This document shows positions 26,238 to 46,934 of a DNA stretch of 64,000 nucleotides, piece by piece (within the stretch, counting starts at the first letter, position 1; each line of letters begins with the position of its first letter). The notes beneath the pieces were generated by a model. That model saw nothing but the letters and a program-made list of their open reading frames with translations. It was not told the DNA's origin and ran no database searches. Origin of the DNA: Bradyrhizobium sp. WBOS07 (GTDB lineage: Bacteria > Pseudomonadota > Alphaproteobacteria > Rhizobiales > Xanthobacteraceae); NCBI RefSeq assembly GCF_024585165.1, contig NZ_CP029008.1, positions 4,278,001 to 4,342,000 on the forward strand. Direction: 5' to 3'. The position numbers and the translations under genes are program-made.

Positions 26238-27206
26238 ATGAGCGAGACGCTCCTGACGCCGATCGAGATCGGCCTGACCGCGGCGATCGTCGCGATCGAG
26301 GGCCATGAGCCGCTGATCCTGACCGCGCGCGGCAGCGACGGGCTGGCCGGCCTGCCGTTCGGCCCGTTCGACGCGCTCGCGCACCGCACCTTCGAGATCG
26401 GCCTGCGCGCCTGGGTCGAGGAGCAGGCGGGCCTGCGGCTCGGCTATGTCGAGCAGCTCTACACCTTCGGCGATCGCGGCCGTCATGCCGAGGCCGGCGA
26501 CACCGGAGCGCATATGGTGTCGATCGGCTATCTCGCGCTGACGCGGGCGGTGGATGGCGAGCTCGCAGCCAACGCGGCGAGCTTCGCCCCATGGTATCGC
26601 TTCTTCCCCTGGGAAGACTGGCGCGAAGAGCCGCCGGCGATCATCGCCCGCGACATCATCCCCGCGCTGACCGAGTGGGCCGCGGAGGAGACGCCGGAAA
26701 CGACGCGCGCGCTGCCGCGCAAGGATCGCGTGCGGTTCTGTTTCGGCCTCGAGGGAGCAGCCTGGGACGAGGAGCGCGTGCTCGACCGCTACGAGCTGCT
26801 GTACGAGGCCGGGCTGGTCGAGGAGGCGCGGCGCGACGGCCGGCCTGCGGCATTAGCGCGCAAGACGCTGCCTCCGCTCGGGACCTCGATGCGGTTCGAC
26901 CATCGCCGGATTCTCGCTACGGCGATCGCGCGGCTGCGTGCAAAACTGAAGTATCGTCCTGTCGTGTTTGAACTTTTGCCGCCCGAATTCACACTTACCG
27001 AACTGCAGCATACGGTGGAGGCGATCTCCGGCCGGCACCTGCACAAGCAGAATTTCCGCCGCCTGGTCGAAATGGAGGCCCTGGTCGAACCGACCGGGGT
27101 GATGTCGACACAGACGGGCGGACGGCCGGCGGCGCTCTACCGTTTCCGCCGCGACGTGCTTCAGGAGCGGCCCGCACCGGGCTTGCGCGTACGCTCCCGG
27201 CGCTAG
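26238..27206 (+). CDS. nadQ: NAD metabolism repressor with Nudix-like and winged-helix domains
   Basis: About 322 residues from the chosen ATG. The N-terminal two thirds is a Nudix-like ligand domain that lacks a canonical Nudix box; residues 155-240 carry a linking domain; the C-terminal 90 residues are a winged helix (FTLTELQHTVEAISGRHLHK, then QNFRRLVEMEALVEPTG and GRPAALYRF). This is the layout of the NrtR/NadQ family; NadQ is the NAD-synthesis repressor described for alphaproteobacteria. Two matching operator-like palindromes precede nadA in this window (37625 and 37698). No such site is seen before this gene. Assignment to NadQ rather than NrtR rests on lineage and target, so it is inference. 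Confidence 0.78.
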   Translation: MSETLLTPIEIGLTAAIVAIEGHEPLILTARGSDGLAGLPFGPFDALAHRTFEIGLRAWVEEQAGLRLGYVEQLYTFGDRGRHAEAGDTGAHMVSIGYLALTRAVDGELAANAASFAPWYRFFPWEDWREEPPAIIARDIIPALTEWAAEETPETTRALPRKDRVRFCFGLEGAAWDEERVLDRYELLYEAGLVEEARRDGRPAALARKTLPPLGTSMRFDHRRILATAIARLRAKLKYRPVVFELLPPEFTLTELQHTVEAISGRHLHKQNFRRLVEMEALVEPTGVMSTQTGGRPAALYRFRRDVLQERPAPGLRVRSRR

Positions 27207-36148: not shown

Positions 36149-37402
36149 TCAGGCGGGCTGCGCAACCGCCCGTGCCACGGGTTTCTCCACGATCGGAAGA
36201 TTGATCAGCGCGGAGAGCACGCCGAACAGGATCGAAAGCCACCAGATCGGCGTGTAGGAACCGAATTTCTCGAACACGATGCCCCCGAGCCAGACGCCGA
36301 GGAAGCCACCGACCTGATGGCTGACGAAGGCGAAGCCGTAGAGCGTGGCAAGCCAGCGCGTGCCGAACATCAGCGCCACCAGCGCCGAGGTCGGCGGCAC
36401 CGTGGAGAGCCAGGTCAGGCCGGAGATCGCACCGAACGCAATCGCCGAGAACGGCGTGATCGGGAACGAGATGAAGGCGAGTGTCGCCAGCGCGCGCGTG
36501 AAGTAGATGGTCGAGAGGATGTAGCGCTTGGGCAGTGAGTTCTGGAGATAGCCGACGCTGAGCGAGCCCACGATGTTGAACAGACCGATCGCCGCGATCA
36601 CCCAGCCGCCGGTTTGTGCGGTGATGCCGCGATCGACCAGGAAGGCCGGCAGATGCACGGTAATGAAGGCGAGCTGGAAGCCGCAGGTGAAGAAGCCGAG
36701 CACCAAGAGCACATAGGAGCGGTGGCCGAAGGCCTCCGCAAGCGCCTTTGTAATGGTCTGCTCATCGGCAGGCGCCGTATTGGCCGTGTTTGCGACAGGC
36801 GGCGTCGAGAGCGCCAGCGACAGCGGGATGATCAGCAGCATCAGGAAGCCGAACACTGAGAGCGCCTGCTGCCAGCCGAAATTGTCGATCAGCGCGACGC
36901 CGATCGGCGCGAACAGGAACTGCCCGAACGAACCCGCAGCGGTGCCGGCGCCGAGCGCGATGCCGCGCTTCTCCGCGGGCAAGAGCTTGGTGAAGGCCGA
37001 CAGCACCAGGTTGAACGAGCAGCCGGCCAGACCTAAGCCGATCATCACGCCGGCCCCCATGTTGAGGGACAGCGGCGTCGAGGAATAGCGCATCAGGAGC
37101 AGCCCGCCGGCATAGAGGAGCGCGCCGACGCACATCACCCGGAACAGGCCGAAGCGATCGGCCACGGCTCCAGCGAAAGGCTGGCCCAGGCCCCACAGCA
37201 GGTTCTGCACGGCGATCGCGAGGCCAAACACGTCGCGGCCCCAGGAGAATTCGTGGCTCATCGGCTGCACGAAGAAGCCGAGCGCCGAGCGCGGACCGAA
37301 GCCGAGCATGCCGATCGCACAGCCGCACAGAATGATGATGGCCGGGGTGCGCCAATTGGAGGAACGTGGGGCCGGAGCAAATTCGCTCACTGATGTCGAC
37401 AT
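36149..37402 (-). CDS. MFS transporter
   Basis: 417 residues with twelve predicted membrane helices and the MFS motif GAVADRFGLFRV after helix 2. It resembles the oxalate/formate-antiporter-like branch of MFS carriers; the substrate is not known. It precedes acuI in a likely two-gene operon, which hints at import of an organic acid or thiolated precursor, but this is speculative. Upstream, at 37452-37467, GTGCCATTTAATGCAC is an imperfect palindrome that might be an operator. Confidence 0.82.
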   Translation of the reverse strand: MSTSVSEFAPAPRSSNWRTPAIIILCGCAIGMLGFGPRSALGFFVQPMSHEFSWGRDVFGLAIAVQNLLWGLGQPFAGAVADRFGLFRVMCVGALLYAGGLLLMRYSSTPLSLNMGAGVMIGLGLAGCSFNLVLSAFTKLLPAEKRGIALGAGTAAGSFGQFLFAPIGVALIDNFGWQQALSVFGFLMLLIIPLSLALSTPPVANTANTAPADEQTITKALAEAFGHRSYVLLVLGFFTCGFQLAFITVHLPAFLVDRGITAQTGGWVIAAIGLFNIVGSLSVGYLQNSLPKRYILSTIYFTRALATLAFISFPITPFSAIAFGAISGLTWLSTVPPTSALVALMFGTRWLATLYGFAFVSHQVGGFLGVWLGGIVFEKFGSYTPIWWLSILFGVLSALINLPIVEKPVARAVAQPA

Positions 37403-37620
37403 GGTGCTCCTCGTTTGTCATTGGCGGAGTGGCGAAGCAGCCGCCGCGAACGTGCCATTTAATGCACTTGCATGAAAATCCCAAGTCAAAAACGGTTGCA
37501 TTCCACGAGGAGCTGCCGCGGGAGCATTGCATTTCAATGTGGCCTCACCTGACCCTCCGGACCTGACGGAAATGTGTGCGGCTGGATCTGGCAATCCCCG
37601 GTAGAGCATGTTATGTTAGA
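37403..37620. other. Divergent intergenic region between the MFS and nadA genes
   Basis: No gene is seen. It is less GC-rich than its surroundings and should hold the MFS promoter. The imperfect palindrome at 37452-37467 is the only small feature I can point to here; the nadA operators follow directly. Confidence 0.4.
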
Positions 37621-37621
37621 T

Positions 37622-37638
37622 TTGCTCATAATGAGTAT
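37622..37638 (+). promoter_or_regulatory. Putative NadQ operator 1
   Basis: The core CTCATAATGAG (37625-37635) is a perfect inverted repeat around one base, in the context TTTGCTCATAATGAGTATAT. Its centre (37630) is 73 bp, about seven helical turns, from the centre of a second site with the same flanks in the opposite orientation. Both lie before nadA. Confidence 0.72.
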
Positions 37639-37694
37639 ATAAAACCCGAAGACATCCGCGCTGGCCTCTCGGCCGGCATTTTCGGATCTCATAT

Positions 37695-37711
37695 ATACTC
37701 AAATTGAGCAT
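37695..37711 (+). promoter_or_regulatory. Putative NadQ operator 2
   Basis: The core CTCAAATTGAG (37698-37708) lies within TATACTCAAATTGAGCATA. Its reverse complement reads TGCTCAATTTGAGTATA, matching the first operator TGCTCATAATGAGTATA except at the centre. It ends 25 bases before the nadA start codon, so a bound repressor could block the promoter or early elongation. Confidence 0.72.
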
Positions 37712-37735
37712 AATTAATCTGCAAGGGAGGCTTCG

Positions 37736-38842
37736 ATGCCGATCGCTGGAATTTACGGCCCCGACGACTTTGCCAACCGGCCCCAGGGCCAAGTCAGCGC
37801 CTTCCCCCGGGCCGCACCCGCACGAACGGAAGCCAGGCTGCCGACGCCCTCGCTGACATGGACGCCGGAGGTCGCCCGCGCGACTGCGCCGCTCTATGAG
37901 CGCGTGAAGCATGTGATCCCGCCGATCGAGTGGCCGCTGATGGCGCCGACGATCCTGGCGATCAACGAGCTGAAGCGCGCCCGCGGCGCGGTGATCCTCG
38001 CGCACAATTACCAGTCCCCCGAGATCTTCCACTGCGTCGCCGATATCGGCGGCGATTCGCTGCAGCTCGCCGTCGAAGCCACCAAGGTGAAGGCCGACAT
38101 CATCGTCCAATGCGGCGTGCATTTCATGGCGGAGACCTCGAAACTGCTCAACCCCGACAAGACGGTGCTGATTCCCGACGCAAGCGCCGGCTGCTCGCTC
38201 GCCGCCAGCATCACCGGCGCCGACGTCCGCCTGCTGCGCGAGAGATTTCCCGGTGTGCCGGTCGTCGCTTACGTCAACACCTCGGCCGAGGTGAAGGCCG
38301 AGGTCGACATCTGCTGCACCTCCTCGAACGCGGTGCAGGTGGTCGAGAGCCTTGGCGCTCCAAGCGTGATCTTCCTGCCCGATCGCTATCTCGCAACTTA
38401 CGTGGCCTCGAAGACCGACGTGAAAATCATCGCCTGGAAAGGCGCCTGCGAAGTACACGAGCGTTTCAAGGGCGAAGAGCTGCGCGCTTTCCGCGAGGCC
38501 GATCCGTCGGTGCAGATCATCGCGCATCCCGAATGTCCGCCGGACGTGCTGGCGGAAGCCGACTTCACCGGCTCGACCGCGCACATGATCAACTGGGTGC
38601 GTGAGCGGCGGCCGCGGCGGCTGGTGATGATCACGGAATGCTCGATGGCCGACAATGTGCGCGCCGAGCTGCCCGACGTCGAGATGCTGCGCCCCTGCAA
38701 TCTCTGCCCGCATATGAAGCGCATCACGCTCGCCAACATCCTGGACAGCCTGCTGACGCTCCGTGAGGAGGTAACGATCGATCCCGCGCTCGCGGAGAGG
38801 GCAAGGCGATCGGTCGAGCGGATGATCAATCTGAAGAACTGA
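37736..38842 (+). CDS. nadA: Quinolinate synthase
   Basis: 368 residues. NadA condenses iminoaspartate with dihydroxyacetone phosphate to quinolinate using a [4Fe-4S] cluster. The three cluster cysteines fall in [13 protein letters not shown] (near 123), the CCTSSNA segment (near 190) and [10 protein letters not shown] (near 322). The first 45 residues are a variable extension. AAGGGAGG lies 5 bases before the ATG. It is the first gene of nadABC and is preceded by the two putative NadQ operators. Confidence 0.95.
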
Positions 38843-39056: not shown

Positions 39057-40661
39057 ATGACCAACAACATCCACGACCTCATCCGCACCGACGACATCGT
39101 CATCGTGGGCGGCGGTCTTGCCGGACTGTTCTGCGCGCTCAAGCTCGCGCCGCGTCCGGTGACGCTGATCTCGGCGGCACCGCTCGGACAGGGCGCATCA
39201 TCCGCATGGGCGCAGGGCGGCATCGCCGCCGCGGTGGCCGAGGGCGACACGCCGGAGGCGCATGCTGCCGACACGATCGCGGTCGGTGGCGGCCTCGTCG
39301 ACGAGGCGGTCGCACTCGGGATCGCACGCGAGGCGGCGCCGCGCATCCACGACCTGCTCGCCTATGGCGTGCCGTTCGATCGCGATCTCGAAGGAAAGCT
39401 TGCGGTCGGGCGGGAAGCTGCGCACTCGGCCCGGCGCATCGTGCATGTGCGCGGCGACGGGGCGGGCGCCGCGATCATCGCGGCCTTGAGCGATGCGGTG
39501 CGCCGGACGCGGTCGATCCGCGTGATCGAAAGCCTCGTCGCCGAAGCCCTCTTGACCGAAGATGGCGTCGTCTCCGGGCTTCAGTTGCGCGAAGCCGGCA
39601 ATCCCGCGGCACGGCCGCTCCTGCTCGCCGCGCGTGCGGTGGTGCTTGCCACCGGCGGGATCGGACACCTCTATGCCGTCACCACCAATCCGTTTGAAGC
39701 CAACGGCTCGGGCCTTGCCATCGCGGCCCGCGCCGGCGCCGCGATCGCCGACCCCGAATTCGTTCAGTTCCACCCGACCGCCATCATGACCGGAGGCGAT
39801 CCGGCACCGCTCGCCACCGAAGCCCTGCGCGGCGAAGGCGCGACGCTGATCAACGGCAACGGCGAGCGCTTCATGGCGGCGCGCCATCCGCTCGCCGAGC
39901 TCGCGCCACGCGACATCGTGGCCCGCGGCGTGTTCGCCGAGATCGCGGCCGGGCGCGGCGCCTTCCTCGACGCACGGGCGGCGCTCGGCGCGCGCTTCGC
40001 CGACAGATTCCCGACCGTGCATGCGAGCTGCATCGCCGCCGGCATCGATCCGGCGAGGCAGGCCATCCCGGTCGCGCCCGCCGCGCACTACCATATGGGC
40101 GGCATCGCGGTGGACGGCCGCGGCCGCAGCTCGATCGAGGGGCTCTGGGCCGGCGGCGAGGTGTCGTCGACCGGCGCGCACGGCGCCAACCGGCTGGCCT
40201 CGAATTCGCTGCTGGAGGCGGTGGTCTATGCCGCGCGCATCGCCGACGACATCGCCGGCCGTATTCTTCCCTCCCCTGCCCGCCTTCCCGAGGCATTGGT
40301 GACACCGCGCGGCGGCGCGCCGGATGCTGCTGCCGTGCGGCGGTTGCGGGCGACGATGAGCTCCTGCGTCGGTGTGATCCGCGACGATGGCGGCCTGGTG
40401 GAAGCCGTGCACCACTTCGCCGCGCTCGAACGCGAGGCGACGAGCACCACGCTGCGCAACATGGCCACCGCAGCCCTGCTTGCCGCCGCCTCGGCGTGGA
40501 GCCGGCGCGAAAGCCGCGGGGCGCATTTCCGCATCGACCACCCGACGGAGGTGCCCGCGCTGGCGCAGCGAACGATGACCACCCTCGCCGCGATGCGCGA
40601 GGCCGCCGAGAGCCTGAACGAGCGGCCAGTATCGCGCAGCGCCCAACCCCTGACTGCCTGA
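39057..40661 (+). CDS. nadB: L-aspartate oxidase
   Basis: 534 residues. FAD-dependent enzyme that oxidises aspartate to iminoaspartate. The FAD motif [16 protein letters not shown] is at residues 15-30, [13 protein letters not shown] near 45, and the substrate region [10 protein letters not shown] near 235; [20 protein letters not shown] (near 365) is the succinate-dehydrogenase-like signature. A GGAG lies about 8 bases before the ATG. It is separated from nadA by 214 bases that include a palindromic repeat, and from nadC by 11 bases. Confidence 0.95.
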
Positions 40662-40672
40662 AGGAAGCCCCG

Positions 40673-41548
40673 ATGACCCCGACCTCACTGCTCTATCCCG
40701 ATGCCTTCCTCTCGCCGCTCGCAATCGACGCGGCCGTTCAGCGCGCGCTCGACGAGGACCTCGGCCGCGCCGGCGACATCACCTCGCTTGCGACGATCCC
40801 GGAAGCGACCAAGGCGCAGGCAGTCCTGGTCGCGCGCCAGTCCGGCGTGATCGCCGGCCTGCCGCTTGCGCTGGCGACGCTGCAAAAGCTCTCGGCCGAC
40901 ATCGATGTGCGCGCCCATGTCCGCGACGCCGCTCGCGTCGCCCGCGGACAGCAGGTGCTGACGATCTCGGGCCCCGCGCGCGCCATCCTCACCGCGGAGC
41001 GAACCGCGCTGAACTTCGTCGGCCGCCTGTCGGGCGTTGCGACATTGACGGCGGATTATGTCGCGCGCACCGAAGGCACGAAGATGCGCATCTGCTGCAC
41101 GCGCAAGACCACGCCGGGGCTGAGGGCGCTGGAGAAATACGCGGTGCGCTGCGGCGGCGGCTTCAACCACCGCTTCGGTCTCGACGATGCGATCCTGATC
41201 AAGGACAACCACATCGCGGTCGCCGGCGGCATCCGTCCGGTGCTGGAGCGCGCCCGCGCCCATGCCGGCCATCTCGTCAAGATCGAGATCGAGGTCGATA
41301 CGTTGTCGCAATTGCGCGAGGTGCTCGACAGCGGGCTGGCCGACGCCGTGCTGCTCGACAACATGGATCTTGCGACGCTGCGGGAGGCCGTCAGGCTCAA
41401 CGAGGGCCGCCTCGAGCTCGAGGCGTCCGGCGGGGTCACGCGCGAGTCGATCGCCGCCATTGCCGCCACCGGCGTCGATTACGCCTCGGCCGGCGCGCTG
41501 ACGCATTCCGCGCCGAATTTCGACTGCGCGCTGGATATTGAGATGTGA
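40673..41548 (+). CDS. nadC: Nicotinate-nucleotide pyrophosphorylase (carboxylating)
   Basis: 291 residues. Quinolinate phosphoribosyltransferase with the characteristic [15 protein letters not shown] (near 24), [13 protein letters not shown] (near 110), [20 protein letters not shown] (near 142) and IKDNHI (near 176) motifs. It converts quinolinate and PRPP to nicotinate mononucleotide. It is the last gene of the nadABC operon; a palindromic repeat follows 12 bases after the stop. Confidence 0.95.
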
Positions 41549-46778: not shown

Positions 46779-46934
46779 CTAGAAGCGGAGCCACTTCAGG
46801 AGCCCGAGCCCGATCGCGCCGTTCACGATGAGGAAGATCGCGACGATCAGGTTCAGCAGCCGCGGCATGATCAGGATGAGCACACCCGCAATCAGCGACA
46901 GGATCGGCGAAATGTGGGCGACGGTGATGTGCAT
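46779..46934 (-). CDS. DUF3096 small membrane protein
   Basis: 51 residues, MHITVAHISPILSLIAGVLI onward, with two hydrophobic segments around MPRLLNLIV and a C-terminal GLLKWLRF. It matches the DUF3096 family of two-helix membrane peptides found in many proteobacteria; the function is unknown. It is in the same orientation as ppdK, 96 bases upstream of it, and too short to stand out among larger frames. Confidence 0.8.
   Translation of the reverse strand: MHITVAHISPILSLIAGVLILIMPRLLNLIVAIFLIVNGAIGLGLLKWLRF

Follow-up and report, generated by a model that had tools for sequence, protein, structure and literature searches.

Control of NAD synthesis by NadQ is described in a comparative study by Leyn et al. 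This work of 2016 predicted NadQ (COG4111) to regulate NAD synthesis in alphaproteobacteria and in several beta- and gammaproteobacteria; its main text gives ttATRCTCannntGAGYATaa as the consensus of the binding sites and nadABC as the core targets (PMC5343134). In the title of Minazzato et al. 2022, NadQ is called Nudix-like and ATP-responsive, and it is from this title only that we take ATP as a possible effector. A DNA-bound repressor located downstream of the transcription start can stop the RNA polymerase, as described in passages on LacI, for example (PMC4132739, PMC10310618). In Bradyrhizobium diazoefficiens, table 2 of a study on nasT lists nadA, nadB and nadC as down-regulated 2.5-3.3 fold in the mutant under denitrifying conditions; among all genes with lowered expression, however, the authors recognised clear NasT hairpins at coxS and nirA alone (PMC6759348).

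We analysed a DNA stretch of 64,000 nucleotides from Bradyrhizobium sp. WBOS07, hereafter the window, which harbors a nadABC cluster and a nadQ gene (Table 1). The three nad genes, whose identities were confirmed by family models, lie on one strand downstream of two palindromic sites. The next gene upstream of nadA is a divergent MFS ORF (36149-37402, minus strand). The twelve best named relatives of the window NadA all belong to Bradyrhizobium (88-94% identity). The nadQ product matched PDB 7q91, a "NADQ transcription factor", over residues 13-318 of 322 (E 9.6e-81) and also 7q92-7q94. It contains a winged helix of the NrtR type (PF21906 NrtR_WHD, E 4.8e-23, residues 243-303). At E up to 0.001 it was the only NadQ match in the genome, and at the same threshold Pfam called two winged-helix models and no Nudix domain in it. 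The preliminary description had named a NadQ-like protein here; the near full-length PDB match and the winged helix support its assignment as a NadQ.

Table 1. Predicted elements and genes of the nadQ/nadABC region in the window
Feature	Position	Strand	Basis
nadQ, predicted repressor of NAD synthesis (literature: COG4111)	26238..27206	+	PDB 7q91, PF21906
NadQ operator 1 (TTGCTCATAATGAGTAT), predicted	37622..37638, centre 37630	+	1 mismatch to ATRCTCANNNTGAGYAT
GC-rich hairpin	37660..37677 (arms 37660-37666 and 37671-37677, loop 37667-37670)	+	7 pairs, -14.2 kcal/mol, z -2.63
Weak T-tract ATTTTCGG, 4 of 8 T	37678..37685	+	sequence
NadQ operator 2 (ATACTCAAATTGAGCAT), predicted	37695..37711, centre 37703	+	0 mismatches to the consensus ATRCTCANNNTGAGYAT; proximal site kept across the class
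nadA, quinolinate synthase	37736..38842	+	TIGR00550, NF006878, PF02445
nadB, L-aspartate oxidase	39057..40661	+	NF005701, E 3.3e-225
nadC, quinolinate phosphoribosyltransferase	40670..41548 (start putative)	+	TIGR00078, E 2.1e-95

The two palindromes, CTCATAATGAG (37625-37635) and CTCAAATTGAG (37698-37708), each consist of two 5-bp arms and one central base. Together with their flanks they give exact TGCTCA-N3-TGAGTATA matches at 37623-37639 on the plus strand and 37694-37710 on the minus strand. Thus, the two perfect inverted repeats with matching flanks in opposite orientations, on which the preliminary description was built, were located exactly, with their centres 73 bp apart and that of site 2 situated 33 bp 5' of the nadA start. 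From the 17-bp core of the published consensus the predicted operators deviate by 0 and 1 mismatch. The 17-mer TGCTCANNNTGAGTATA, with which a scan of the genome had been proposed, occurs exactly at only two places in 6,727,433 bp, both in the region upstream of nadA, at a chance expectation of about 0.05 (14 fixed bases, two strands, 6.7 Mb; our own arithmetic). At up to 3 mismatches, the genome contained 55 forward and 58 reverse matches, whereas the reversed pattern, used as a control, gave 24 and 28. The symmetric consensus ATRCTCANNNTGAGYAT disclosed two further places with 1 mismatch (2749228 and 4801541) and, at up to 2 mismatches, 36 places (34 besides the two sites) versus 7 for the control. 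No NAD gene was recognised in the listed surroundings of eight of the weaker genomic matches. Within the window, six matches with up to 3 mismatches were found, four of them at the two sites (100 shuffles: mean 0.89, largest 5), and there was no such NadQ site near the nadQ gene, which lies 10.5 kb from the nadABC sites; both facts speak against the operator reading. A stretch at 46866-46884 resembles a NadQ site, matching with three mismatches on both strands.

The occurrence of the sites was compared with that of NadQ in other bacteria. Among named relatives, represented by the best 80 of the 595 NadA matches kept, 77 of the 80 nadA loci had at least one site at up to 2 mismatches in the scanned stretch; the misses were L069, L076 and L053, the last of which offered only 62 bp for scanning. 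A class-wide sample of 114 genomes comprised 30 with NadQ, 44 with a NadA match (45 places) and 19 with the exact core. NadQ was encoded in 15 of these 19 genomes, and in 13 of the 15 the site preceded the start of the NadA match by no more than 90 bp. NadA matches were absent from the four genomes with the exact core and without NadQ (G445, G468, G485 and G487). When 44 nadA upstream stretches (the window's own left out) were scanned with up to 2 mismatches, a site was detected in 26 of 27 from NadQ-bearing genomes, the best site having at most 1 mismatch in each case, and in none of 17 from NadQ-less genomes (16 genomes, one with two places). This contrast gave a Fisher p of 2.6e-11, the shuffles predicting about 0.16 and 0.13. 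The sole miss, G437, possesses NadQ and no site upstream of nadA at that threshold. A strict two-operator pattern was found in one of 397 genomes across the order, and a looser version in 35 of 147 across the genus.

Within the genus sample of 147 genomes (E up to 1e-50 for NadA and up to 1e-20 for NadQ), two kinds of NadA and NadQ were distinguished. In kind A, to which the window belongs, NadA is 80-100% and NadQ 81-100% identical to the window proteins; the respective values for kind B are 64-69% and 51-56%. No mixed genome was observed, since NadA of kind A was accompanied by NadQ of kind A in 88 of 88 cases and that of kind B by its own kind in 52 of 52. A NadA match was absent from seven genomes, six of which also had no NadQ match, and the seventh (G536) retained just a 201-bp NadQ match (residues 236-304) with a stop. 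The matched kinds suggest that regulator and target operon were replaced or lost as one unit. A search for the origin of kind B returned, among the best 120 of 7897 protein matches, mostly unnamed proteins and otherwise Bradyrhizobium names. In the kind-B stretches examined, nadQ is located directly upstream of nadA with the operators in between. Leaders from 19 of the 52 genomes (L260-L278) exhibited sites 27 bp apart in 16 cases and 22 bp apart in two, and one had a single site (up to 2 mismatches). At a distance of 27 bp, the place of the hairpin is occupied by the other operator. Taken together, the published consensus, the co-occurrence in the class and the joint replacement or loss in the genus corroborate the earlier proposal that the palindromes are NadQ-type operators of nadABC; very probably they are the binding sites of this known repressor of NAD synthesis. 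This reading is well supported but already published in kind.

It would be very improbable that the palindromes instead act as hairpins or another element at the RNA level, even though they can fold as RNA, too. In the non-core set, the dyad of the sites extends to ±10, where 58 of 85 rows are paired (shuffles: mean 41.6, largest 55). The R/Y position ±6 of this set leans to pairing as well (59 of 85; mean 51.1, largest 61). At the same position, however, Bradyrhizobium rows showed no covariation (28 of 79, duplicates retained; shuffled mean 30.5). Beyond ±10 pairing remained within the shuffles in both sets, and the presence of the site tracks the NadQ gene. No Rfam match was obtained at E up to 1 in the window region 37300-38000, nor any in 13 related leaders, by which a known RNA family or riboswitch, including the NAD riboswitch, was rejected as well. 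The dyad test gave no support for an RNA role, and the palindromes, whose symmetry ends at about ±10, behave like DNA operators.

The distance of 73 bp had been interpreted as about seven helical turns, which would place two NadQ dimers on one face of the DNA. For this, 77 distinct kind-A leaders were compared (68 of 89 other places, the window and 13 named loci, minus 5 identical rows). In 66 of them both sites (up to 2 mismatches) lie 63-77 bp apart, namely 63 (1 leader), 64 (6), 65 (1), 67 (1), 69 (1), 70 (1), 71 (2), 73 (10), 74 (19), 75 (15), 76 (8) and 77 bp (1). In a divergent group of nine leaders, the upstream match carries 1-3 mismatches and is separated from site 2 by 125-138 bp. 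The last two are nadA copies in two-nadA genomes with one weak site each. These two copies, L187 (G638:C129) and L197 (G626:C2), keep the leader hairpin; at up to 3 mismatches, just one NadQ site was detected in each, with 2 mismatches. Since spacings of 73-77 bp (53 of 66) and 63-65 bp (8 of 66) are about one turn apart, the bimodal distribution looked phase-like and might suggest a helically phased DNA loop or a same-face cooperation of two dimers. Yet, the remaining five spacings of 67-71 bp each arose by a separate change on the flank tree, on which only three changes led to 63-65 bp (26 of 63 inner branches well supported). Moreover, the resultant length at 10.5 bp (0.733) was not above that at 11.0 bp (0.740) and equalled that at 12.1 bp (0.732), and arrangements with 27, 22 or 125-138 bp exist besides. 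Helical phasing was rejected on these grounds, and we regard a phased loop or same-face cooperation as improbable. The proposal of two dimers on one face found no support: given the spread of 63-77 bp and the changes on the tree, the spacing is loosely kept and not locked to the helix. For the operator reading itself, the varying spacing argues against a tight cooperative geometry.

Between the two sites the leaders contain a GC-rich hairpin. The preliminary description had passed over this element, whose distance to site 2 is the part of the arrangement that is kept. When the best 6-bp stem was determined for each of the 66 leaders with two sites, its right arm started exactly 32 bp upstream of the site 2 centre in 64 of them. 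Of these 64 stems, 61 are fully paired. Stems with six of six pairs, at least five of them GC, were present in 61 of the 66 leaders versus 210 of 3300 shuffles. Loop length at that place varies between 3 and 6 bases, which is more in keeping with a hairpin formed in RNA than with the binding site of a protein. The pattern CCGGCCN{2,6}GGCCGGATTTCTC yielded 12 matches in 12 of 41 genus genomes, all of them in nadA leaders; the window version differs and is not included. For a wider comparison, a hairpin was defined by a minimum of 4 pairs and of 4 GC, a loop of 3-8 bases and an end 30-25 bp before the centre of the proximal operator. By this definition, 72 of 74 Bradyrhizobium leaders possess it (82 leaders, of which 5 identical ones and 3 without a site at up to 1 mismatch were left out), with at least 4 T in 58 and at least 5 T in just one. 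A second set consisted of 94 other loci (67 from named relatives, 27 class-wide; L048 and L057 are MAGs titled Bradyrhizobium), of which 86 were examined, seven having no site at up to 1 mismatch and L053 too little sequence. Here the hairpin was found in 58 of 86 loci or, after dropping a duplicate (L107 equals L137) and with L048 and L057 included, in 57 of 85. These 57 distinct loci carry 37 different stems.

The hairpin is often followed by a T-tract. Counted over eight bases beginning 0-2 bases after the hairpin, at least 4 T were present in 57 and at least 5 T in 49 of the 86 other loci. Six control offsets gave 0-9 hairpins, of which 0-1 had at least 4 T, and three further ones gave 0, 2 and 0 hairpins with at least 4 T. 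A per-base histogram over 94 loci, which include eight divergent Bradyrhizobium leaders, peaked at -28 and -27 with 57 and 56 loci, compared to about 1 in shuffles. When the arms were redealt among the loci, the inner four pairs were fully paired in a mean of 17.9 of 57 (maximum 25) versus 57 observed; as the stems had been selected for pairing, a fairer comparison is provided by the histogram shuffles and the control offsets. At positions -26 to -19, loci with the hairpin have on average 5.69 T of 8, those without it 3.29. The window T-tract stays below the level of at least 5 of 8 T, and a terminator scan called nothing in the window leader; other families have stronger tracts at the corresponding place, such as TTTTCTTT in L102. 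Judging by these T-tail counts and the missing call, many relatives possess a terminator-like element, of which the window has a weak version. This terminator-like hairpin at a near-fixed distance before the second site, found in many related bacteria, is the new part of our analysis. No earlier description of it was found in Rfam or by a literature search, which included text of PMC5343134, PMC12421817, PMC11452294, PMC5082802 and PMC6759348, with supplements and RegPrecise outside its reach; in the parts of PMC5082802 covered, nadA goes unmentioned.

Attempts were also made to locate promoters. A standard promoter scan found none in the window at 37400-37760, and no clear promoter was seen in Bradyrhizobium leaders. 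A simple sigma-70 scan upstream of the hairpin in 58 loci (L107 and L137 both counted) called a promoter in 20 and none in the remaining 38. Of the 20 called loci, 18 have no more than 20 bp between the end of the -10 box and the hairpin, and in 15 this distance amounts to 6-9 bp; exactly 7 bp were found in 10 loci versus 0.8 expected from shuffles. Where a promoter can be recognised, transcripts probably begin near the hairpin. According to our reading of the calls, eight loci have an upstream NadQ-like site, at a distance of 59-71 bp from the proximal site, whose right half contains the -10 hexamer (TAGCAT in seven, CTATAT in one), so that NadQ bound at this upstream site would block initiation. 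Because the -10 box lies outside any such site in the other 12, a promoter role of operator 1 rests on these eight loci, and in the window, where no promoter was called, operator 1 is placed in the promoter by analogy. Upstream of site 1 (about 37563-37623), two blocks are strongly conserved in 66 leaders, TTGACGggAATGTGTGCGGC, which reads CTGACGGAAATGTGTGCGGC in the window, and CGTGtTATcTTtGATTT; they may represent a promoter or the site of another regulator.

The calls just described could also be explained by a hairpin that, placed at the start of the transcript, guards the 5'-end of the mRNA against decay, with operator 2 as an independent roadblock: in 15 of the 20 called loci, the -10 box precedes the hairpin by 6-9 bp, which would put the likely first base at or near the hairpin. 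We consider such a stabiliser unlikely. It would not need a T-tract, yet T is enriched in the hairpin loci (5.69 versus 3.29), and it would leave the distance to operator 2 unfixed.

Among 43 hairpin loci whose flanks were long enough, a rough heuristic assigned a divergent nearest upstream ORF to 22 and a co-directional one to 21. Because of the 22 divergent cases, the ending of an upstream gene is no general explanation of the hairpin. Nevertheless, the co-directional loci would be compatible with a hairpin and T-tract that stop stray transcription from upstream and insulate a second promoter, which overlaps operator 2 and drives nadABC. The end of the T-tract would then double as part of the -35 box, and the fixed distance would follow from promoter spacing. 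Indeed, in several loci of Rhizobiaceae type we read a TTGAYC whose first base precedes the centre of the proximal operator by 20 or 19 bp (TTGACC in L103, TTGATC in L092 and L102). However, by the same reading Bradyrhizobium leaders and many other rows contain no TTGAC-like box there, the window, too, has a divergent upstream ORF, and in 18 of 58 hairpin loci the called promoter ends no more than 20 bp upstream of the hairpin. We hold an insulated second promoter to be possible but doubtful, and the same applies to the shared -35 box and to promoter spacing as the origin of the fixed distance.

A model has to start from what can be read from the DNA itself, i.e. both sites, the NadQ gene, their co-occurrence, their joint replacement and the hairpin at a near-fixed offset; what the hairpin does, we infer. 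A useful model must account for the near-fixed distance between hairpin and operator. With high confidence, we propose that the NadQ encoded in the window represses nadABC through the palindromes as its operators, with roles at the promoter and at the hairpin. NadQ very likely binds to both operators and thereby represses the operon. Operator 1 is probably located at the promoter, a position adopted for the window genome from its relatives, and NadQ bound there would compete with initiation. Operator 2 follows just downstream of the terminator-like hairpin, so that a NadQ dimer at this site would obstruct a polymerase that has escaped, which would thereby be retained on the hairpin and T-tract. 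Judging from the sequence, the hairpin may serve to terminate transcription, to protect the message or to insulate a promoter at operator 2.

A more specific and rather speculative form of the operator model is a promoter-proximal terminator that is gated by the repressor and widespread in nadABC leaders of Alphaproteobacteria. The RNA from a NadQ-controlled promoter would fold almost immediately into the hairpin. NadQ at the second operator, a near-fixed distance of about 26 bp further on, would halt the polymerase as it reaches the T-tract. The halted polymerase would release a very short RNA, and without NadQ it would continue through. The weak T-tracts of Bradyrhizobium might then work only while the polymerase is held there. 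If this were true, one repressor would act at initiation and at early elongation.

The operator pair is a well-supported addition to the published regulon, and the hairpin is the part worth following. The window agrees with the NadQ regulon in consensus, nadABC target, NrtR-like winged helix and alphaproteobacterial host, and in the regulon autoregulation of NadQ is confined to some groups (PMC5343134); paired sites and a leader hairpin go unmentioned in main-text passages of that study, whose supplement, or RegPrecise, may list both sites. The crystallised NadQ (PDB 7q91-7q94) is homologous to the window protein over nearly the full length; it is another protein, whose effector and operator affinity the window protein may share. 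NrtR, the Nudix-related NAD regulator, shares the C-terminal winged helix PF21906 with the window NadQ. Its model NF050029, however, scores the window protein with 65.4 of 400 bits, far under the cut-off and over residues 217-306 only, and unlike NrtR the window protein has no Nudix domain called by Pfam. With intrinsic terminators and attenuators, the leaders of many nadA relatives have a GC stem, a short loop and a T-rich tail in common. They differ from them by the near-fixed offset of the hairpin to a repressor operator and by the weak T-tract in Bradyrhizobium, and from an attenuator in that, in 18 loci, the hairpin is predicted to begin no further than about 20 bp from the -10 box, so that an alternative antiterminator would hardly fit in. 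A hairpin and T-tract at nearly the same base pair from a repressor site, over differing stems, points to the step between initiation and elongation. NadQ may control this step, and the near-fixed offset marks a precise place for testing. The passages on repressor roadblocks describe no coupling to a hairpin and T-tract (PMC4132739, PMC10310618); at nadA, the operator would stop the polymerase right at such an element.
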